NCBI RefSeq assembly: GCF_009903625.1
Contig: NZ_CP047569.1
Location: 1,334,501-1,398,500 of the forward strand
DNA: 64,000 nucleotides
Direction of reading: 5' to 3'
Source: Microbulbifer sp. ALW1
Lineage (GTDB): Bacteria; Pseudomonadota; Gammaproteobacteria; Pseudomonadales; Cellvibrionaceae
In this document: positions 2,657 to 58,923 of the stretch, one piece after another
Position numbering within the stretch: position 1 is the first letter of the stretch
Layout: every line of letters begins with the position of its first letter
Notes under the pieces: model-generated
What the model was told of the DNA's origin: nothing
The model's input: only the letters and a program-made list of their open reading frames with translations
Database searches by the model: none
Program-made: the position numbers and the translations under genes

Positions 2657-3178
2657 ATGGCGGTACCGGCAGGCACTGGCCGCAGCAAGGCGGCATCACA
2701 GATCCGGACGATCGCAAAAGAGCGATTTCGTGTGGATCTGCCCACCTATCATGCAGACTGTGATGCCAATTATCTGCGCCTGTGCAAATTGATGCCGGAG
2801 CTCGCAAGTAACCAAAGCTGGCGCTACCAGATGCCCGACGGCACCCTGGAAGTGGCGGTGCTGGAGCGCAGCAGGTACACCACAGAGGTGAGCCTGCAAT
2901 CCTCCGCGCCGGAACCCGGCAGCAAGGACAAAAACTGGCTGGCTCCGCCTCCCATTACCGTGCGCCTGTATCACGATGCGCGCATGGCGGAAGTGGTGGC
3001 GGTGGACGGTCAGGGGCCGATCGGTGGCGACGGACTGAATTTCAGCTATCCCAACCCGGCCATGCACAGTGAAGACGAGCGCCAACAGGTCAACCGGTTC
3101 CTGAGCGAATGGTTGGCTCATTGCCTGGCAAATGGACGCGCGGAAGTCGACTTCACCCTGGGTGGTCGGCGCATCTGA
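2657..3178 (+). CDS. yqiB: DUF1249 family protein (YqiB-like)
   Basis: This 173-residue cytoplasmic protein belongs to the DUF1249/YqiB family. Family signatures are the N-terminal DCDANYLRLCKLMP segment and the strand pattern around VEVLERSRYTTEVSL and PPITVRLYHDARMAEVV. The ATG at 2657 was chosen because an AGGAG ribosome site sits 9 bases upstream. Function is unknown in all members. Its place between nudF and cpdA is conserved in many gammaproteobacteria, which is the strongest evidence for the symbol. Confidence 0.85.
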   Translation: MAVPAGTGRSKAASQIRTIAKERFRVDLPTYHADCDANYLRLCKLMPELASNQSWRYQMPDGTLEVAVLERSRYTTEVSLQSSAPEPGSKDKNWLAPPPITVRLYHDARMAEVVAVDGQGPIGGDGLNFSYPNPAMHSEDERQQVNRFLSEWLAHCLANGRAEVDFTLGGRRI

Positions 3179-21642: not shown

Positions 21643-21767
21643 GCTCACTCCTTCACGGCAGCTTCGAAAGCTGCCTGACCGTTTGTTATTTTGGTCTGGC
21701 CGATTCTACTGAAGGAGCTGTTGAGATGCTAATGAAGCGCAGAAACTTAAATTGAAGGGAAAGTGGT

Positions 21768-21857
21768 GGGTAACCCTTTTTGAAAGCGTCGGCGACATGG
21801 ACGTCGCCGACGCAGCGTACAGGGATGTATCCACAGCGGTTTCAAAAAGGGTTACCC
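21768..21857 (-). repeat. Nested palindrome element, copy A
   Basis: Outer arms 21768-21785 and 21840-21857 are perfect 18-bp complements (GGGTAACCCTTTTTGAAA). The inner stem GCGTCGGCGAC/GTCGCCGACGC (21786-21796, 21803-21813) has a 6-nt loop. The 26-nt core lies at 21814-21839 on the minus strand. It sits downstream of the AbgT gene. The core and inner stem match copy B; the outer arms largely do not. Confidence 0.85.
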
Positions 21858-21892
21858 AGCGCTTGCCCGCCACCGAGGGGCGAGCAGAGCAC

Positions 21893-23494
21893 TTACATGG
21901 TGAAGTAAGTGGCCGCTCCGGGGCCAACCGGCAGGCCGGCTACAAACACCCAAAGGAAGAAGAGTGCGGTCCAGCCGATAAAGAAGAAGATCGAGTAAGG
22001 GATCATGGTCGCGATCAATGTGCCCATTCCCAGGTCTTTCTTGTAGCGGGTGGCGAAGGACACGATCAGGCCGAAGTAGCTCATCATCGGCGTGATGATG
22101 TTGGTCACCGAGTCGCCGATCCGGTAGGCGGCCTGGATTACTTCCGGCGCATAACCCAGCAGCATCAGCATGGGAACAAAGATCGGCGCGGTTACCGCCC
22201 ACTGCGCCGAGGCACTGCCCAGGCTCAGGTTGACCACACCACACATCAGGATAAAGAAGAAGAACAGGATCGGGCCGGTGAGGCCGATGCTCTGCAGGGC
22301 TTCCGCACCCAGCACCGCAAAGATGGTGCCCAGATTGGTCATTTTGAAGAAGGCCACAAACTGCGCGGCGAAGAACACAAGCACGATATACATGCCCATG
22401 GTGCCCATGCTTTTTGACATGGCATCGATCACATCGCGGTCATTCTTCATGGTGCCCACCACCTTGCCGTAGACAAAGCCCGGTACCGCAAAGAACACCA
22501 CAATCAGGGCGACAATGCCTTTCAGGAAGGGGGAGCCGGCTACGGCACCTGTCTCCTGATTTCGCAGTACACCCCACTCCGGCACGATGGTGAGTGCCAG
22601 CAAACCGCACACCGCAAGTACCGCGAGGCCGGCGTATTTCAGGCCGCGTTTCTCGGTGTCGGTCAGGGTGGTCATCTTGTCCTGTGACAGATCCACGGAA
22701 GCTTCGCTGCTGTCGTACTTGCCCAGTTTCGGTTCCACAATTGCCAGGGTCACCCAGCTACCCACAATGGTGATCAGGAAGGTGCTGACGATCATGAAGA
22801 ACCAGTTCACCTCGGGCCCCACGACATAGGTGGGGTCGATCATGTGCGCGGCGGATTCGGTGATACCGGACAGCAGCGGATCCACGGTGCCGAGGAACAG
22901 GTTGGCACTGTAACCGCCGGATACCCCGGCAAAGGCCGCGGCCAGACCCGCCAGCGGGTGTCGGCCAAGGGAGTGGAAGATCATCGCCGCCATGGGGATC
23001 AGCACCACATAGCCGAGCTCGGAGGCGGTGTTGGAGATGATGCCGGCGAATACCACGATCACCGTAACGGTGCGTTTGGAGGCCTGCAGCACCATACCGC
23101 GCACCGCGGCAGACAGCAGCCCGGAGTGCTCGGCAATCCCCACACCCAGCAGGGCCACCAGTACCGTGCCCAGGGGCGCAAAACCGGTGAAGTTGGTGAC
23201 AAGTGTTGTGACTATGGTCCTGAGACCTTCGCCAGAGAGCAGGTTGACCACATGGATAACGCCATCGGCAGCACGACCGGCAGCACCTTCGGGGCGGGGA
23301 TCCGCCACTGACAGGCCAAAAAAGGACGCGATGCCACTGATCAGCACCACACCCACAGCAAACAGGGCGAACAGGGTAATGGGGTGGGGGAGCAGGTTAC
23401 CCAGCCATTCCACCGTATCGAGGAAGCGGGTAAAGGCCGTTTTTTTCGTGGCGCCGGCGGGCTGGATGTCACTGGGGGATGTGGATGTTGTCAT
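21893..23494 (-). CDS. abgT: AbgT-family transporter
   Basis: This 533-residue inner-membrane transporter has about 11-13 helices and hairpins. AbgT hallmarks are the N-terminal RFLDTVEWLGNLLPHPITLF, then NFTGFAPLGTVLVALLG and AEHSGLL, and a C-terminal VGWT/PVGPGA-type tail. Family members import p-aminobenzoyl-glutamate or, in marine strains (MtrF, YdaH), export sulfonamides. The start is well supported by AGGAGACATA before ATG 23494. A downstream M20D amidohydrolase would fit a peptide-type substrate. The ancestral substrate here is uncertain. Confidence 0.9.
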   Translation of the reverse strand: MTTSTSPSDIQPAGATKKTAFTRFLDTVEWLGNLLPHPITLFALFAVGVVLISGIASFFGLSVADPRPEGAAGRAADGVIHVVNLLSGEGLRTIVTTLVTNFTGFAPLGTVLVALLGVGIAEHSGLLSAAVRGMVLQASKRTVTVIVVFAGIISNTASELGYVVLIPMAAMIFHSLGRHPLAGLAAAFAGVSGGYSANLFLGTVDPLLSGITESAAHMIDPTYVVGPEVNWFFMIVSTFLITIVGSWVTLAIVEPKLGKYDSSEASVDLSQDKMTTLTDTEKRGLKYAGLAVLAVCGLLALTIVPEWGVLRNQETGAVAGSPFLKGIVALIVVFFAVPGFVYGKVVGTMKNDRDVIDAMSKSMGTMGMYIVLVFFAAQFVAFFKMTNLGTIFAVLGAEALQSIGLTGPILFFFFILMCGVVNLSLGSASAQWAVTAPIFVPMLMLLGYAPEVIQAAYRIGDSVTNIITPMMSYFGLIVSFATRYKKDLGMGTLIATMIPYSIFFFIGWTALFFLWVFVAGLPVGPGAATYFTM

Positions 23495-24522: not shown

Positions 24523-24717
24523 GCATTCGCTCCTTGAACTTCATGGCCGTGTGGCGCAACACTTTCAGTCTAGCCGGGGATGGAAAAGCGCAATATTTTT
24601 GCGTTTACTCTGGTGACAGGCCGAGTGCTGGTGATTTGGGGCTTGTTGGTCTCCGGGCGCATCGGGATAATGTGATCACAAATTTACTGGTGTGTTTTAG
24701 TGAGCAGTGGTGGAAAG

Positions 24718-25425
24718 ATGAAAATAGGTGTTCTGAAAACCGACGATGTACGCCCGCAACTGGTGGCGGAATTCGGCGAGTACCCGGAGATGTTTGCGGA
24801 CCTGCTGAAGCGTGAAGACCCATCTCTGGAGTTTGTGACCTATGAGGTGCAGCACGGCCACTATCCGGACGATATCGATGAGGTGGATGCCTACTTGATT
24901 ACCGGCAGCAAAACCGGTGTCTACGATGACCAGCCTTGGATTGCGCCTTTGATGGCGTTTGTGCGCGAGTTGCACAAGCGCGAGAAGCCGACCCTGGGGA
25001 TCTGTTTTGGCCACCAGTTGATTGCCCATGCGCTGGGTGGTGAGACGCGCAAGTCGGAGAAGGGCTGGGGTGTGGGGGTGCACAGTTACGAGGTGCAGGA
25101 GACGCCGGTGTGGATGGTGGAGCCTAAGGAGAACTTCAGCCTGTTGGTGAGCCATCAGGATCAGGTGGTGACACCGGCGCCGGGCACCAAGGTGATTGCT
25201 TCCAGCGATTTCTGCCCTTATGCGCTGCTGCAGGTTGGTGAGCACATGCTTACGATGCAGGCACATCCGGAGTTCACCAAGCCCTATTCACAGGGGCTGA
25301 TGGAGCTGCGCAGAGAGGTGTTTGGTGAGGATATGGTGGAGAAGGGCAAGGATTCGCTTTCTAACGATATTCACACCAGTGCGGTGGCGCGGTGGATGCT
25401 GGCTTTTTTGAAGAGTGCTTCGTAG
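24718..25425 (+). CDS. Class I glutamine amidotransferase-like protein
   Basis: This 235-residue cytoplasmic protein has the GATase1 fold. It contains LITGSKTGVYDD, the nucleophile elbow LGICFGHQLIAHALGG with the catalytic Cys, and QAHPEF with the His and Glu that complete the triad. The N-terminal layout (MKIGVLKTDDVRPQL) is that of stand-alone GMP-synthase-like amidotransferases, some of which act as gamma-glutamyl hydrolases. GTG 24700 is an alternative start 6 codons upstream. The natural partner or substrate is unknown. Confidence 0.85.
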   Translation: MKIGVLKTDDVRPQLVAEFGEYPEMFADLLKREDPSLEFVTYEVQHGHYPDDIDEVDAYLITGSKTGVYDDQPWIAPLMAFVRELHKREKPTLGICFGHQLIAHALGGETRKSEKGWGVGVHSYEVQETPVWMVEPKENFSLLVSHQDQVVTPAPGTKVIASSDFCPYALLQVGEHMLTMQAHPEFTKPYSQGLMELRREVFGEDMVEKGKDSLSNDIHTSAVARWMLAFLKSAS

Positions 25426-25466
25426 CTGGGGCGAAAGTTCTATTTGCATTATGTGGCGCCAAAGCA

Positions 25467-25560
25467 CTGGGTGTAAGTTTTTGAAACCGCTGTGAATACA
25501 TCCCTGTACGCTGCGTCGGCGACGTCCCTGTCGCCGACGCTTTCAAAAACTTACACCCAG
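25467..25560 (+). repeat. Nested palindrome element, copy B
   Basis: Outer arms 25467-25486 and 25541-25560 are perfect 20-bp complements (CTGGGTGTAAGTTTTTGAAA), and pairing goes on weakly outwards to 25461/25566. The core is at 25487-25512 (begins CCGCTGTGAATACATCCCTG). The inner 11-bp stem is 25513-25523/25530-25540 with loop GTCCCT. It lies between convergent genes. Confidence 0.88.
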
Positions 25561-25602
25561 CACTTTGGCTTCAGCCCACCTGCATTGCTTCGTTAGCGGA
25601 GA

Positions 25603-26151
25603 TTATTTCCACTTGATATTGCAGCCGATCGACGGCGTCTGATCTTCTCCTGGCTCGTCCCCCGCCAGAACTTTATCCACAGCTGCGCGCAAATCCTTTC
25701 CATCCACCGGCTCATTATTCCCCGGTCGGCTGTCATCAAACTGCCCGCGATAGGCCAGCTTTCCATTCCCATCAAACAAGAAAAAGTCCGGGGTGCAGGC
25801 AGCGTCGAACGCTTTGGCCACAGACTGATCCTCGTCCACCAGATACGCAAAGCGATATCCCCGCGCGGCCACTTCTTTCTGCATTTTCTCCGGGCTGTCC
25901 TCCGGATAGCTGGCAAAGTCATTGCTGTTGATGGCGACGATGCCGAGGCCGGCGGGCAGGTACTGCTCGGCGAATTTGGAGAGTGCGGCGGCAATGTGTT
26001 TTACGAAGGGGCAGTGGTTGCAGATAAACATGACCAGCAGTGGCTTGCCCGCATAGTCGCTGCTGCTGACCAGGGCGCCGGTCGGATCCGGGAGTTTGAA
26101 GCTGGGCATGGACGTGCCCAGTGGAATCATGGTGGAGGGAGTGAGGGCCAT
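25603..26151 (-). CDS. Thioredoxin-like redoxin-family protein
   Basis: This 182-residue protein has an AhpC/TSA-Redoxin fold: SFKLPDPTGALVS, the strand LLVMFICNHCPFVKH with a CNHC active-site-like pair, INSNDFASYPEDSPE and FFLFDGNGKLAYRGQFDD. The long NDxxxYPxDSxxxM segment is typical of the thioredoxin-like family annotated as COG0526 redoxins of unknown partner. A proline-containing TPDFFLF is the cis-Pro loop. No signal peptide is visible, so it is probably cytoplasmic. It begins well apart from the urease cluster, divergent from ureD. Confidence 0.85.
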   Translation of the reverse strand: MALTPSTMIPLGTSMPSFKLPDPTGALVSSSDYAGKPLLVMFICNHCPFVKHIAAALSKFAEQYLPAGLGIVAINSNDFASYPEDSPEKMQKEVAARGYRFAYLVDEDQSVAKAFDAACTPDFFLFDGNGKLAYRGQFDDSRPGNNEPVDGKDLRAAVDKVLAGDEPGEDQTPSIGCNIKWK

Positions 26152-28013: not shown

Positions 28014-29729
28014 GTGAGCAGCATGGATAGAGAAAGCTACGCACAGATGTTCGGCCCCACTACCGGCGATCGCGTGCGTCTGGCAGACACCGAACTCTGG
28101 CTGCAGGTAGAAAAAGATTTCACCCGCTACGGGGATGAAGTGAAGTTCGGCGGCGGCAAGGTGATCCGCGACGGTATGGGGCAGAGCCAGCGGCCGTCTG
28201 CCGAAACCCCCGATTTGGTCATCACCAACGCGCTCATTCTCGATCACTGGGGTGTGGTCAAGGCTGATGTTGCAGTTAAAGACGGGCGCATTTCCGGAAT
28301 CGGCAAAGCGGGCAATCCGGATGTGCAGGAAGGGGTCGAAATCATCATCGGTCCCGGCACCGAAATTATTGCCGGCGAGGGTTCGATCCTGACTGCCGGC
28401 GGTATCGATGCGCACATTCACTTTATCTGCCCGCAACAGGTGGAGGAGGCGCTGATGTCCGGCGTTACCACCATGATCGGCGGCGGTACAGGACCAGCTA
28501 CCGGCACCAATGCCACTACCTGCACCCCCGGTCCCTGGAATATTGGCAAAATGCTGCAGGCCACGGACAGCTTGCCGATGAACTTGGGCTTTCTCGGCAA
28601 GGGCAATGCCAGCCTGCCGGAAGCCATTGAAGAACAACTGGAAGCCGGTGCCTGCGGGCTAAAATTGCACGAGGACTGGGGCACTACACCCGCGTCCATC
28701 GACTGCTGTCTGACGGTGGCGGAAAAATACGATGTGCAGGTGGCGATTCACACCGACACCTTGAACGAATCCGGGTTTGTGGACGATACCCTCGGTGCTT
28801 TCAAGGGGCGCGCCATTCACACCTATCACACAGAAGGTGCCGGCGGTGGACACGCGCCGGACATCATCAAGGCGTGCGCCTCGGAAAACGTATTGCCGTC
28901 TTCCACCAATCCTACGCGTCCCTATACGGTCAACACCGTGGATGAACATCTCGATATGCTGATGGTGTGCCACCACCTAGATACCAGTATTCCCGAAGAT
29001 ATTGCCTTTGCCGATTCGCGTATTCGCAAGGAAACCATTGCCGCGGAAGATATCTTCCACGACCTTGGCGCCTTCAGCATGATTGCCTCGGATTCCCAGG
29101 CAATGGGCCGTGTGGGTGAAGTGGTTACCCGCACCTGGCAGACTGCGCACAAGATGAAAGTACAGCGCGGCAATTTGCCGGAGGATGCAGTTGGTGAAAC
29201 TGCCGGCGCCGACAATTTTCGCGCGCGCCGCTATATCGCCAAGTACACCATCAACCCGGCGATCACTCACGGCATCGCCCACGAAGTGGGTTCCATCGAG
29301 TTGGGTAAACTGGCGGATCTGGTGTTGTGGAAGCCGGCCTTCTTCGGCATAAAACCATCGATGATTTTAAAAGGCGGGATGATTGCCGCGGCCCCCATGG
29401 GGGACCCCAATGCCTCCATCCCCACGCCGCAACCGGTGCATTACCGCCCCATGTTTGGTGCCCTGGGTTTGGCCGCGGCGAAAACCTCGGTGACCTTTGT
29501 GTCCCAGGCTGCACTGGACAACAGTGTCGGAGAAAAACTCGGCCTGCAACGCACCCTGGTAGCCTGTAAAAACACCCGCAATATCCGCAAAAAAGACATG
29601 CTGCTGAACGATTGGCAGCCGGACGTCACCGTTGACCCCCAGACCTACGAAGTGCGTGCCGATGGCGAACTGCTTACCTGTGAACCCGCCACGGAGCTGC
29701 CGCTGGCGCAGCGTTATTGCTTATTCTGA
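28014..29729 (+). CDS. ureC: Urease alpha (catalytic) subunit
   Basis: This 571-residue catalytic subunit carries the dinickel centre. Visible are [14 protein letters not shown] (nickel ligands), GLKLHEDWG with the lysine that becomes carbamylated, [13 protein letters not shown], the active-site flap with MVCHHLD, and GHAPDII. GTG 28014 is spaced 7 bases from GGGGAG and gives a length close to other UreC proteins; ATG 28023 is the alternative. Maturation depends on the UreDEFG set around it. Confidence 0.97.
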
Positions 29730-48930: not shown

Positions 48931-48981
48931 TTTGGTACTCCGCTACATCTAATTAGTGTTCTTAATATGTTTTGTGGCGGC

Positions 48982-49088
48982 GCCGGTATCGGGTGCAGGT
49001 TTGTGAGACACGCCGTGAACCCATCCCTGGGGGCTCTGCAAAAACATCCTGTTTTTGAAGGTCTCACAAACCTGCACCCGATACCGGC
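48982..49088 (+). repeat. Nested palindrome element, copy C
   Basis: This is the longest copy. Outer arms 48982-49009 and 49061-49088 are a perfect 28-bp complement. The core at 49010-49035 begins ACGCCGTGAACCCATCCCTG. The inner stem CAAAAAC/GTTTTTG (49039-49045, 49051-49057) has loop ATCCT. It sits between the GH43 gene start and the symporter stop. Confidence 0.88.
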
Positions 49089-49130
49089 ACCTGCTCGGAA
49101 ATTTTTGATTTCTTAACGAATTGCTTTGTC

Positions 49131-55847: not shown

Positions 55848-57440
55848 ATGACGATTACCGGAAAACAACTGATCGCAGGCAACTGGGTGGACGGCCGTGC
55901 CGGATCATTTCATGGCGTAAATCCGGCCACCGGTGAAAACCTGGCACCGGCGATCAGCTCCGCGGATGAGTTCCAGGTAACCGAAGCGGTGAATGCCGCC
56001 AGCGCCTGCGCCACGGAATTTGCCAATCTGGCACCGGCCAAGCGCGCTGCATTCCTCAACGCCTGCGCCGACGAAATCATGAACCTGGGCGATGAGCTGC
56101 TGGAGCGTGTCTCTGCAGAGACCGGCTACCCGTTGGCCCGCGCCCAGGGCGAGCGCGGCCGTACCTGCGGCCAGCTGCGCCTGTTTGCAGACTGGATTGT
56201 AAAAGGTGAATACCTGGATGCGCGCATCGATACCGCCATGCCGGATCGTGAACCGCTGCCGCGCCCTGACCTGCGTTCCTTCAATCAGGCACTGGGACCG
56301 GTGGCGGTCTTCGGTGCGAGCAACTTCCCGCTGGCGTTCTCCGTCGCCGGTGGGGACACCGCGGCGGCATTTGCCGCCGGTTGTCCGGTGATTGTAAAAG
56401 GCCACAACTCCCACCCGGGCACCAGCGAGCTGGTAGCCCAGGCGATTGATAAGGCCGTAAAAAACACCGGCATGCCTGCGGGTGTTTTCTCTCTGATCAT
56501 GGGTTCCGGGCGCCGCGTGGGCGCCGAGCTGGTAAAGGCGCCGGGAGTAAAAGCGGTTGGCTTCACCGGTTCCTTGCAGGGCGGTATGGCGCTGTTCAAC
56601 CTGGCCAACGCACGCCCGGAACCGATTCCTGTGTTTGCAGAAATGGGCAGCATCAACCCGGTCGTACTCTTGTCAGAAGCGCTGCAAGAAAAAGCTGAAA
56701 CCATCGCCGAAGGCTTTGTCGGCTCCCTGACCCTGGGTACCGGTCAGTTCTGTGTGAACCCTGGGCTGGTGCTGGCAGTGGAAGGTGAAGGTCTGGATCG
56801 CTTTATCGCGGCCACCAGCGATGCACTGGCCAAGGTCGGCGCAGGTGTGATGTTGAATGAAAATACCCTGGCCGGATACCAGAGCGGCGTTGCCCGCCTG
56901 CGCGATCAGCAGGGCGTGGAACAGGTTGGCTGTGGTGAAGCCGCTGGTGACGATAGAGGGTTCACTTGCCAGGCGGGTCTGTTGACCGTGGATGGTAAGA
57001 ACTTCCTCGCCAACAAAGAGCTGCAGGAAGAAGTCTTCGGCCCCATGTCGCTGGTAGTGAAGTGTCGCGATCGCAGCGAACTACTGCAGGCAATTGCTTC
57101 ACTGCAGGGCCAGCTGACCGGAACTCTGCAGTGCACCGAATCGGAGCTCGCGGGGTACGGCGATCTGGTAGAAATCCTGCGGCAGAAAGTCGGCCGTGTG
57201 GTTTGCAACAATTTCCCTACGGGTGTGGAAGTGTGTCATTCCATGATGCACGGTGGTCCTTTCCCTGCGGCTACCGATGCGCGCTTCACTTCCGTCGGCA
57301 CCATGTCCATCGCGCGCTTTGTGCGCCCGATCTGCTTCCAGAACTATCCGGAAGCACTGCTGCCGGAGGCCCTGAAAAACGCCAATCCGCTCAACATTGC
57401 GCGGCTGGTAAATGGTGAAAAAAGCAGTGATGCATTCTGA
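55848..57440 (+). CDS. NADP+-type aldehyde dehydrogenase (2-oxoglutarate semialdehyde dehydrogenase)
   Basis: This 530-residue aldehyde dehydrogenase has the catalytic Cys in LGTGQFCVNPGL, Glu in FAEMGSINPV and SNFPLAFSVAGGDTAAAFAAGCPVIVKGH (split). It belongs to the branch used in pentose and hydroxyproline pathways to oxidise 2-oxoglutarate semialdehyde to 2-oxoglutarate. Context (AraD1, dehydratase, SDR) fits that role. AGGAGAAACC precedes ATG 55848. Its stop overlaps the mutarotase start. Confidence 0.87.
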   Translation: MTITGKQLIAGNWVDGRAGSFHGVNPATGENLAPAISSADEFQVTEAVNAASACATEFANLAPAKRAAFLNACADEIMNLGDELLERVSAETGYPLARAQGERGRTCGQLRLFADWIVKGEYLDARIDTAMPDREPLPRPDLRSFNQALGPVAVFGASNFPLAFSVAGGDTAAAFAAGCPVIVKGHNSHPGTSELVAQAIDKAVKNTGMPAGVFSLIMGSGRRVGAELVKAPGVKAVGFTGSLQGGMALFNLANARPEPIPVFAEMGSINPVVLLSEALQEKAETIAEGFVGSLTLGTGQFCVNPGLVLAVEGEGLDRFIAATSDALAKVGAGVMLNENTLAGYQSGVARLRDQQGVEQVGCGEAAGDDRGFTCQAGLLTVDGKNFLANKELQEEVFGPMSLVVKCRDRSELLQAIASLQGQLTGTLQCTESELAGYGDLVEILRQKVGRVVCNNFPTGVEVCHSMMHGGPFPAATDARFTSVGTMSIARFVRPICFQNYPEALLPEALKNANPLNIARLVNGEKSSDAF

Positions 57441-58494
57441 ACTGAACATGCCCAGCGGGATAGTCGCCTCTGAGCTGCCCATCGGCAGCGGTAATCGACC
57501 GCTGCAGTTGATTACGCTGGAGAACAGTCGCGGTACCCGGGTCACCTTGTGTGACCTCGGTGCCAGCCTGTATTCCATCCACACCAAAGACCGCTATGGC
57601 CACAGCGATAATATCCTGCTGACCTACGCCGATCCTCAGCACTGGCTGGAGAACGATGGCTACCTTGGTGTGACTGCGGGTCGGGTTGCCAACCGCATTG
57701 GCGGTGCGTGTTTTGAACTGGGTGGTGAGACTTTCCTGCTGCCGGCCAACGATGGTGAAAACCATTTGCACGGTGGCCCGGAGGGTTTGCATAGCAAGCG
57801 CTGGCAGCTGGTGCAAAGCGAATCTTCGGCGCGTTTCCAGTCGGTGACTTTTCGCTGTGTCAGTGCAGACGGAGAGGGCGGATATCCGGGTAATCTGGAT
57901 ATTGAGCTGACGTATTGTCTGGATGAGGATGATGCTCTGACCCTGGAGTTTCGTGCGGTAACCGATGCGGAAACGCCGGTGGCGTTGACCAATCACTGTT
58001 ACTGGAATCTGGCAGGGCGTGACGGAATCCTCGAGCATGAGCTGGAGATCTACGCTGACCAGCTGCTGCGCCTGAACGATCAGCTGATTCCTACTGGTGA
58101 GTTGCTCGAGGTTGCGGATACACCGGTGGATTTCCGCAAGCGCAAGCAAATTGGCCGTGATATCGAGTGGTGGCCGGGTGGTTACGATAATTTCTGGGTG
58201 GTGGATGAGACCGCGGACAAGGCTCTGAAGCCGATTGCATCTCTGGTACATCCGTCGTCCGGGCGTGCGGTAAAAATTTTCTCCAGTGAGGCTGGGGTCC
58301 AGTTTTACAGCGGAAATTTCCTGGATGGCAGCCGCAATCGCGATGACGGCTCCCCCATGAATCAGTATGCGGGATTGTGTTTGGAAACCCACGGTTTCCC
58401 GGATGCGCCTAATCACAGTAATTTCCCTTCTGTAATTTTGAAGAAGGGTGAGCAGTACCGGCAGACAACGATTTACCAGTTTTCTGCGGAATAA
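57430..58494 (+). CDS. galM: Aldose 1-epimerase (mutarotase)
   Basis: This 354-residue galactose-mutarotase-fold protein interconverts the alpha and beta anomers of aldoses. Catalytic His is in NLHGGPEGLH and TNHCYWNLAG, and Glu in GLCLETHGFPDAPNHSNFP. ATG 57430 overlaps the aldehyde dehydrogenase by 11 bases; ATG 57412 and 57448 are alternatives. It probably supplies the anomer needed by the dehydrogenase. Two nested palindromes lie just downstream. Confidence 0.9.
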   Translation: MHSELNMPSGIVASELPIGSGNRPLQLITLENSRGTRVTLCDLGASLYSIHTKDRYGHSDNILLTYADPQHWLENDGYLGVTAGRVANRIGGACFELGGETFLLPANDGENHLHGGPEGLHSKRWQLVQSESSARFQSVTFRCVSADGEGGYPGNLDIELTYCLDEDDALTLEFRAVTDAETPVALTNHCYWNLAGRDGILEHELEIYADQLLRLNDQLIPTGELLEVADTPVDFRKRKQIGRDIEWWPGGYDNFWVVDETADKALKPIASLVHPSSGRAVKIFSSEAGVQFYSGNFLDGSRNRDDGSPMNQYAGLCLETHGFPDAPNHSNFPSVILKKGEQYRQTTIYQFSAE

Positions 58495-58537
58495 ACTCTT
58501 TCTTCGTAGTGAAATTTTTGCTGCGAAGGCTTCGGTT

Positions 58538-58627
58538 CGGCAGGGGTATCCGGGACTGTCTGCGAGAGGGACCTCGCAGACAAGCCCCCAGGGATGGGTT
58601 TACGGCGTGTCCCGGATACCCCTGCCG
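58538..58627 (-). repeat. Nested palindrome element, copy D
   Basis: Outer arms 58538-58556 and 58609-58627 are a perfect 19-bp complement (CGGCAGGGGTATCCGGGAC). Inner stem TGTCTGCGAG/CTCGCAGACA (58557-58566, 58573-58582) with a 6-nt loop. The core is at 58583-58608 on the minus strand. Confidence 0.88.
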
Positions 58628-58716
58628 GACTGGAGCCGCCACTAGTGGTTATTCCTTGCCAAGTAAATGCTGCAGGGTAGCGACTAGCTGGCCGTAGTGG
58701 CGCCCCCGTCGCCGGT

Positions 58717-58801
58717 AAGCGGTTCACGAGACACGCCGTGAACCCATCCATGGGGGCTCGGCTGCGGCCATCCAGGCCGCAGACGGTCTCGTGAACCGCT
58801 T
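58717..58801 (+). repeat. Nested palindrome element, copy E
   Basis: Outer arms 58717-58732 and 58786-58801 are a perfect 16-bp complement (AAGCGGTTCACGAGAC), and pairing continues outward with two mismatches to about 58706/58812. The core at 58733-58758 is identical to copy C but for one base. The inner stem CTGCGGCC/GGCCGCAG (58762-58769, 58775-58782) has loop ATCCA. Confidence 0.88.
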
Positions 58802-58923
58802 CCCGGCAACGGGAGCTTCGCGTCTGAGTATCTAGTGTTCGTTCACAAAGATGGGTGGACCTACAAAGGGAGCCAAGCTCCCAACAATAAATATAAACAA
58901 TCCAAAGTGATGAGGAGTCCGCT

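Follow-up and report, generated by a model that had tools for sequence, protein, structure and literature searches.

A YPAL-type palindromic element in Microbulbifer, with a fold biased to one strand and stems that turn over in matched blocks

The stretch of DNA analysed here (the window; 64,000 nucleotides of Microbulbifer sp. ALW1, contig NZ_CP047569.1, positions 1,334,501 to 1,398,500) contains five copies, A to E, of a nested palindrome with a conserved core and stems that differ from copy to copy. What kind of element are these copies, and how do stems of differing sequence stay paired? An earlier note, made from the letters of the window, had proposed freely covarying stems under selection for a folded structure. 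All five copies lie where that note had placed them: a search of the window with the covariance model R1, trained on 37 copies from other genomes, returned only these five (E values of 1e-12 to 3e-18), the next-best match having an E value of 0.74, and this search together with the folding score of copy C (below) puts the copies beyond chance. The outer arms are indeed perfect, 16-28 bp long and different in sequence from copy to copy, and both the conserved 26-nt core and the inner hairpin with its TCC loop are present. Overlooked had been that the core folds into a hairpin of its own, again with a TCC loop, and that copies A and D are on the minus strand. Copies in the host also reach further out, to about 118-123 bp with ends GTGGCG ... 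CTTC. The copies and the parts of copy C are as follows, the outer limits of copy C being taken from the ends common to host copies.

21754..21873, minus strand: copy A, full element (R1 match 21773-21852, E 9.9e-13), with perfect arms at 21768-21857; 3' of the AbgT-transporter ORF 21893-23494(-)
25453..25572, plus strand: copy B, full element (R1 match 25473-25554, E 7.1e-14); between the converging ORFs 24700-25425(+) and 25603-26151(-)
48974..49096, plus strand: copy C, full element, GTGGCGG ... CTGCTC (R1 match 48996-49074, E 4.6e-16)
48982..49009, plus strand: left outer arm of copy C, 28 bp, perfect
49012..49034, plus strand: hairpin 1 of copy C (GCC, unpaired GTGAA, CCCA, loop TCCC, TGGG, GGC)
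49036..49060, plus strand: hairpin 2 of copy C, loop TCC (GGA on the opposite strand, reading CAGGATG), folded on both strands
49061..49088, plus strand: right outer arm of copy C
58525..58642, minus strand: copy D, full element (R1 match 58543-58622, E 2.6e-18), first of the inverted pair D/E; 3' of the aldose-epimerase ORF 57412-58494(+)
58697..58819, plus strand: copy E, full element (R1 match 58719-58799, E 8.4e-17), second of the inverted pair D/E

Each copy forms a three-way junction that consists of a long outer stem and two hairpins with TCC/GGA loops. Read in one orientation (A and D reversed), the copies are built alike: the left arm is followed by CGC[C/T]GTGAA, slightly altered in places, and then come hairpin 1, GCT, hairpin 2 and the right arm. 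Hairpin 1 reads CCCATCCCTGGG, CCCATCCATGGG or TACATCCCTGTA. Folding of copy C gives a z score of about -10 as RNA (one strand) and of -11 to -12 as DNA (both strands), with the three-way junction on both strands; hairpin 1 of this copy is folded on both strands as well, and its stem covaries in other genomes. When no sequence was demanded, a hairpin after the core was present in 84 of the 118 named copies listed, and TCC lay inside 82 of these 84 loops of hairpin 2. In some copies of the host and its relatives the GTGAA bulge is replaced by an alternative module of 14-16 nt (AGCTAGGCGCCCCCC-like; stretches L001, L024, L050 and L055, for example); orthologous copies that agree in their arms can differ in this module (pair 14 of the genomes G088 and G091 compared below).

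The element is present in high copy number in the host. The exact core has 37+48 = 85 matches and a reversed-pattern control has none; a loose pattern gives 51 forward and 96 reverse matches (control 0 and 2), the reverse ones being partly counted more than once, and a looser parser finds 82 distinct copies in the host stretches read. At least one loose match occurs in 136 of 144 genomes of the family, low counts meaning little because control matches reach up to 3 per strand. Copy number is patchy and varies strongly, with 0 to 77 forward loose matches within a single genus. In an evenly drawn sample of 398 Pseudomonadota, the exact core is found in 24 of 137 genomes of the host's class (our own row count) and in none of the 261 from outside it. 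Named carriers among the matches listed include Stenotrophomonas, Xanthomonas, Halomonas, Marinobacter, Shewanella, Rheinheimera and Microbulbifer, the copies of the last resembling the host arms most, by eye. In viral contigs the core occurs in three stretches only, and a 61-nt query for plasmid carriage, a weak one since arms vary, had no match among 72,556 records. Escherichia coli has one copy, similar to the Yersinia sequence, in 5 of 5,426 genomes. In wastewater E. coli this copy (L355 and L356, around 3001-3061) adjoins an alcohol dehydrogenase gene and an IS5-type element; the neighbourhood was read in two of the five records, one plasmid and one chromosome, and the gene is the same in both. 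As far as the searched literature reaches, with subscription papers largely outside it, the spread across the host's class is new.

Most host copies stand in tandem or convergent gaps. Among 78 copies examined, 71 could be classed: 59 tandem, 10 convergent and 2 divergent, with 28 of the tandem copies oriented as the genes and 31 opposite (a cruder gene call puts 6 of 54 in divergent gaps). A larger mixed set of 258 copies contains 68 same, 95 opposite, 51 convergent, 12 divergent and 32 unclear cases; the slight excess of opposite copies, which have GGA in the mRNA, is not relied on here. From stop codon to the start of the perfect arm the median distance is 49.5 bases (38 ends). By simple custom gene and terminator calls, another canonical terminator is found at 1 of 38 element-bearing 3' ends versus 66 of 359 others (P 0.011), and the element occupies 5 of 137 divergent gaps versus 35 of 355 others (P 0.026). 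The flanks of the copies have no T run after the outer stem, so the element is not a canonical intrinsic terminator, and the only terminator-like site called around copy C is outside the element. At locus A the copy is present in 2 of 28 relatives (G079 and G086) besides the host, and in 9 of the 28, as judged by eye, a GC hairpin followed by a T run lies on the gene's strand close to the copy's place. Also, of 39 pairs of close neighbouring copies 36 are inverted, 29 in the order +-.

The outer stems carry a mark of which strand folds. We counted the first internal mismatch of the outer stem, one per copy, in 258 copies (own, genus and named, those of the same genus being partly dependent): on the TCC strand it is A.C in 61 and G.T in 12 (P 5e-9), and another mismatch in 69. 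An A.C on the TCC strand is a G.T or G.U wobble on the GGA strand. The A.C:G.T ratio is 18:2 in the host's own copies, 8:2 in the genus (P 0.11 alone) and 35:8 in the named copies; by gene direction, it is 18:4 for same-sense, 15:4 for opposite and 14:3 for convergent copies. Since the ratio is alike in all gene directions, which strand folds is set by the element and not by transcription, and a single-stranded DNA step, or the element's own transcript, accounts for the bias better than selection in mRNA.

On balance, we think that the copies are probably a non-autonomous element, one strand of which must fold for it to spread, and which now serves as a 3'-end structure. REP elements likewise depend on single-stranded folding. 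Spread would need the GGA strand to be folded as a single strand, and a trans-acting factor, unlinked to the copies, would recognise the core and the two loops. Once a copy has settled, its stable fold would end or protect the transcript of the upstream gene, and a filled site would tend to stay filled because of this role. A 3'-end role is likely, and it may be a by-product, as the wobble side does not follow the direction of transcription.

It is possible, if rather doubtful, that the element is purely selfish, that it folds for mobility only and that its placement after stop codons reflects tolerance. The wobble side that is independent of transcription, the inverted pairs, which are as in REPIN/BIME, and the patchy copy number within one genus would all fit such an element. 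However, site and orientation are kept in 16 of 20 copies between genomes of 93% identity (see below), and 3' ends with an element less often have another terminator, both of which argue against this reading.

Our analysis gives no sign of a linked gene for mobility. A co-occurring RAYT gene, which the earlier note had proposed to look for, is not borne out, since counts of Y1 transposases do not track the loose-pattern copy number (rho -0.04, n=48). The host has two matches to PF01797, one broken and one open and weak (26.9 bits, cut-off 23), and no association of the copies with an active Y1 transposase was found. No linked transposase or cargo gene was seen among 545 flanking proteins, whose largest cluster spans 8 loci and, by eye, resembles housekeeping enzymes. 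The host also encodes a Y1_Tnp-like protein (L072, 1003-1866, minus strand) with NMVQ at what we take to be the position of the HUH motif; judged by its sequence it is possibly a domesticated, inactive relative, and many genomes of the genus have matches comparable to it in length and score.

Another reading concerns the loops. Both hairpins present CANGGANG when the GGA strand is read, and by this likeness the copies could be an RNA platform for CsrA/RsmA, in which a CsrA dimer could bridge the two hairpins and the copies would be CsrA sites in 3' untranslated RNA, or sponges; we consider this unlikely. The GGA-strand loops fit the motif CANGGANG in many copies, a minority having only CAGGANG or GGA. 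For hairpin 2, CANGGANG is found in 70 and CAGGANG (five-base-loop form) in 7 of the 92 named copies that could be parsed; the corresponding numbers are 37 and 34 of 81 in the host and 34 and 27 of 66 in the genus. GGA is fixed by the parser in these counts, the count free of this bias being the 82 of 84 loops given above, and hairpin 2 is unparsed in 17 named, 1 host and 1 genus copy. CAGGA(U/C)G is also the repeat motif of CsrB. In addition, the wobble strand of the element is the GGA strand, and CsrA is found in 134 of 144 genomes of the family. Copies A and B carry GTACAGGGATGT, which agrees with the SELEX consensus RUACARGGAUGU in the accessible part of PMC7652899 (the CsrA/RsmA consensus is drawn from the available text of that paper and of PMC6849547), where bridging of sites 10-63 nt apart by CsrA is reported as well. 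In Pseudomonas putida, according to the available part of PMC7937890, three Rsm proteins pull down intergenic RNA flanking ISPpu8, one such RNA being described as a long palindromic region; the palindrome downstream of PP_3547 in strain KT2440 is a candidate relative of the element.

Several observations stand against the CsrA platform. Gene orientation is near even (95 opposite, 68 same), so that many copies have no GGA in the upstream mRNA and keep the same wobble side; the Rfam model RF02770, treated below, is built on the TCC-loop strand; and the SELEX hairpins in the accessible text of PMC7652899 mostly have at most 4 contiguous pairs, whereas hairpin 2 is longer. Genomes of the genus with at least 5 CsrA matches have fewer copies (medians 4 vs 29.5; n=11 and 30), and copies and CsrA matches are negatively related across the genus (rho -0.51, n=42), although these genomes may be one clade. 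Four genomes, G092, G093, G097 and G106, have 18-27 CsrA matches each and few loose matches to the element (1-7 forward). If the GGA loops do bind CsrA/RsmA, the copies would amount to dozens of mobile regulator sites in the 3' regions of many genomes.

How the stems stay matched was followed first across genomes and then at orthologous sites. Alignment A1 consists of 37 gapless copies, all with the spacing that is most frequent in 68 core-containing named rows, these rows being drawn from 72 parsed named copies of the 118 core-holding stretches listed. In A1, 95.4% of cells are paired versus 36-46% with slid partners, a figure inflated because the parser had demanded stems. Two-sided changes occur in 358 cells, a value no shuffle reaches, versus 100 in shuffles of the selected rows, and affect 25 of 31 pairs; further pair types number 61, no higher than the 61.8 of shuffles, which counts against covariation. 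Among 115 named copies listed that were unselected for stems, a copy's own arms share a perfect run of at least 10 in 46, whereas arms swapped between copies do so in 0.1% of 2,287 pairs; the run is missing in the other 69, in some through inserts or imperfect arms. The letters of the hairpin-1 stem that the pattern left free are complementary in 111 of 115 copies, and the pair next to them is always C/G (79) or T/C (36). Thus selection on folded structure, as the earlier note had claimed, is supported by the two-sided changes and the swapped-arm control, and its picture of freely covarying stems proves only half right, as the orthologous sites reveal.

Two species of the genomes compared, G088 and G091, share 93% identity across 176 kb of alignment. 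A stretch of 600 kb in G088 has 20 copies, 16 of which could be parsed in G091 with site and strand unchanged; of the remaining four, two are present in altered form, one is unclear and one lies in a rearrangement. The 16 ortholog pairs comprise 256 arm-pair positions: 211 are the same, 37 differ on both sides yet still pair, 6 differ on one side and 2 otherwise. All 37 two-sided changes fall in 8 of the 16 ortholog pairs and none in the other 8, and a switch in hairpin 2 class accompanies the arm changes in 7 of the 8 that changed; among the 8 pairs with unchanged arms, the core differs in two, one of which has a one-sided change. The arms at these sites are therefore all-or-nothing, more uneven than gradual compensation would make them (Poisson P about 6e-5). 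At changed sites the intergenic DNA near the copies differs too. The 1.16-kb flanks of orthologous copies are 79-99% identical, and transfer on the kilobase scale is not supported as the source of the changed stems, the flanks having 95.0% identity at the 8 changed sites and 94.9% at the 8 unchanged ones. At locus A the arms are exactly or nearly common to three species and the inner stem has changed on both sides.

Simple duplication of copies, which the earlier note had named as the explanation that matching arms would call for, is set aside in part: intact donor arms are rare at other host loci, but group-1 arms resemble each other beyond shuffles. Identical 20-nt left arms occur in 2 pairs among the 46 host copies of group 1 (column-shuffled mean 0.16, maximum 4) and in none among the 33 of group 2. 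Arms with at most one difference form 11 pairs in group 1 versus 2.7 in shuffles (maximum 9), and those with at most two differences 47 versus 17.5 (maximum 36); the figures for group 2 are 0 versus 0.3 and 4 versus 2.6. Group-1 arms are thus mutually related, and duplication followed by change is possible for this group. No empty site alignable base by base was found, G088 and G091 having nearly all sites in common. In G079 locus C is a shortened site that looks like a remnant, and the short palindrome GTGGCGGTGTCGCCACC at the orthologous place of copy C (L197) is probably what a deletion has left of a copy.

One quite speculative and rather unlikely account of this turnover is that filled sites are fixed, oriented slots whose occupant is exchanged in place by a folded single strand, the loops being recognised by a partner. 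The replacing strand would be the GGA strand, as single-stranded DNA or reverse-copied RNA, coming from another copy or from outside; one event would give arms and hairpins new yet matching stems; and a conserved partner, possibly CsrA/RsmA, would recognise the two invariant loops. If this is true, each slot holds its own, nearly unique stem sequence.

Ordinary compensatory evolution, in which point mutations in each stem are followed by compensating ones, as the earlier note had assumed, is improbable. It is consistent with the strong covariation across genomes and with limited two-sided changes at orthologous sites (the inner stem of locus A; pairs 10 and 12), but the confinement of all 37 two-sided changes to 8 of 16 pairs, beside only 6 one-sided ones and a switch of hairpin 2 class in 7 of the 8, speaks against it. 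The copies stand where terminators stand, but that they are plain inverted repeats or canonical terminators arisen independently is ruled out, to a probability close to nil, by model R1, by a 25-nt core common to distant genera with 0 control matches, by the lack of a T run after the stem and by the nested design. The non-autonomous element that settles as a 3'-end structure is the most probable reading. Within the literature searched, both its strand-bound fold and its turnover in blocks are new, and a fold kept on one strand with stems that turn over as matched blocks offers a direct test of the spread and symmetry of palindromic repeats.

Comparison with known systems places this element. 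Like REP, REPIN and BIME sequences, the host copies stand 3' of genes, form inverted close pairs and, as we infer for them, fold as a single strand; the GTGG end recalls the GTAG tag of REP, and is not kept in all genera. Unlike REP, a hairpin of 20-40 bp in the accessible part of PMC3733652, the host copies are three-way junctions of about 120 bp, so a short palindrome with a GTAG-type tag does not describe them. Short GTGGCG..CGCCAC hairpins were considered as a separate family of REP insertion targets and rejected (7 matches per strand versus 6 in the control). The TwoAYGGAY family (RF01731) also has two hairpins with GGA loops, and a link to CsrA has been proposed for it in the available text of PMC4333381; identity with it was rejected, as E-value scans of copy C and seven loci gave no RF01731 match. 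At Rfam gathering cut-offs the five window copies have no match, at E values up to 10 the surroundings of copy C have only two unrelated weak matches, and a literature search with core sequence strings returned no related paper by title. Elsewhere in the window, 28166-28449(-) matches Rfam RF02514 (5_ureB_sRNA; 84 bits), a family discovered in Helicobacter pylori that may also be a broader structure. In the available part of PMC9029176, RF02514 is, like Ysr224, among the most prevalent sRNA labels, Ysr224 being one of the 20 most prevalent bacterial sRNAs.

The closest likeness is to YPAL and to Ysr224, and the earlier note's view that no known element could be recognised is here overturned. 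The host copies almost certainly belong to the YPAL kind, as a variant. YPAL is the Yersinia palindromic sequence (reportedly De Gregorio, 2006; Delihas, 2007). It is the same as RU-2 (PMC2229807; PMC2759123 in its accessible part), and the Y. pestis RU-2 sequence printed in the accessible part of PMC2759123 holds the same core and TCC-loop hairpin; when folded, it forms an outer stem and the two hairpins and, in addition, a further small hairpin. Like YPAL/RU-2, the host copies have the core CGCCGTAAATACATCCATGTAGGCTCG, a second hairpin with a TCC loop and an outer stem, and are intergenic, present in tens of copies and without a linked gene. RU-2 is 168 nt long with an outer stem that is imperfect in its fold, whereas the host copies have about 120 bp, arms that are mostly perfect and locus-specific, and GTGGCG/CTTC ends. 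YPAL makes target duplications of 3-26 bp at targets that span or adjoin dyad symmetry, has moved recently, and may affect the stability of upstream transcripts (PMC2229807); it has been described in Yersinia and Erwinia and, at low copy number, in E. coli (PMC2759123 in its available part, among other sources). Ysr224 (Yersinia sRNA 224, RF02770) is filed as an sRNA in Rfam. The alignment of RF02770 spans the core together with hairpin 2, and on the same strand, with 34 matches in the host at E values of at most 0.01; none of the 34 reaches the gathering score of 70 bits, and since the best scores 43.7 bits, the host element is a variant of the YPAL kind and not a member of the Ysr224 family of Rfam. 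The label Ysr224 thus appears to mark the edge of a class-wide, high-copy structured element.
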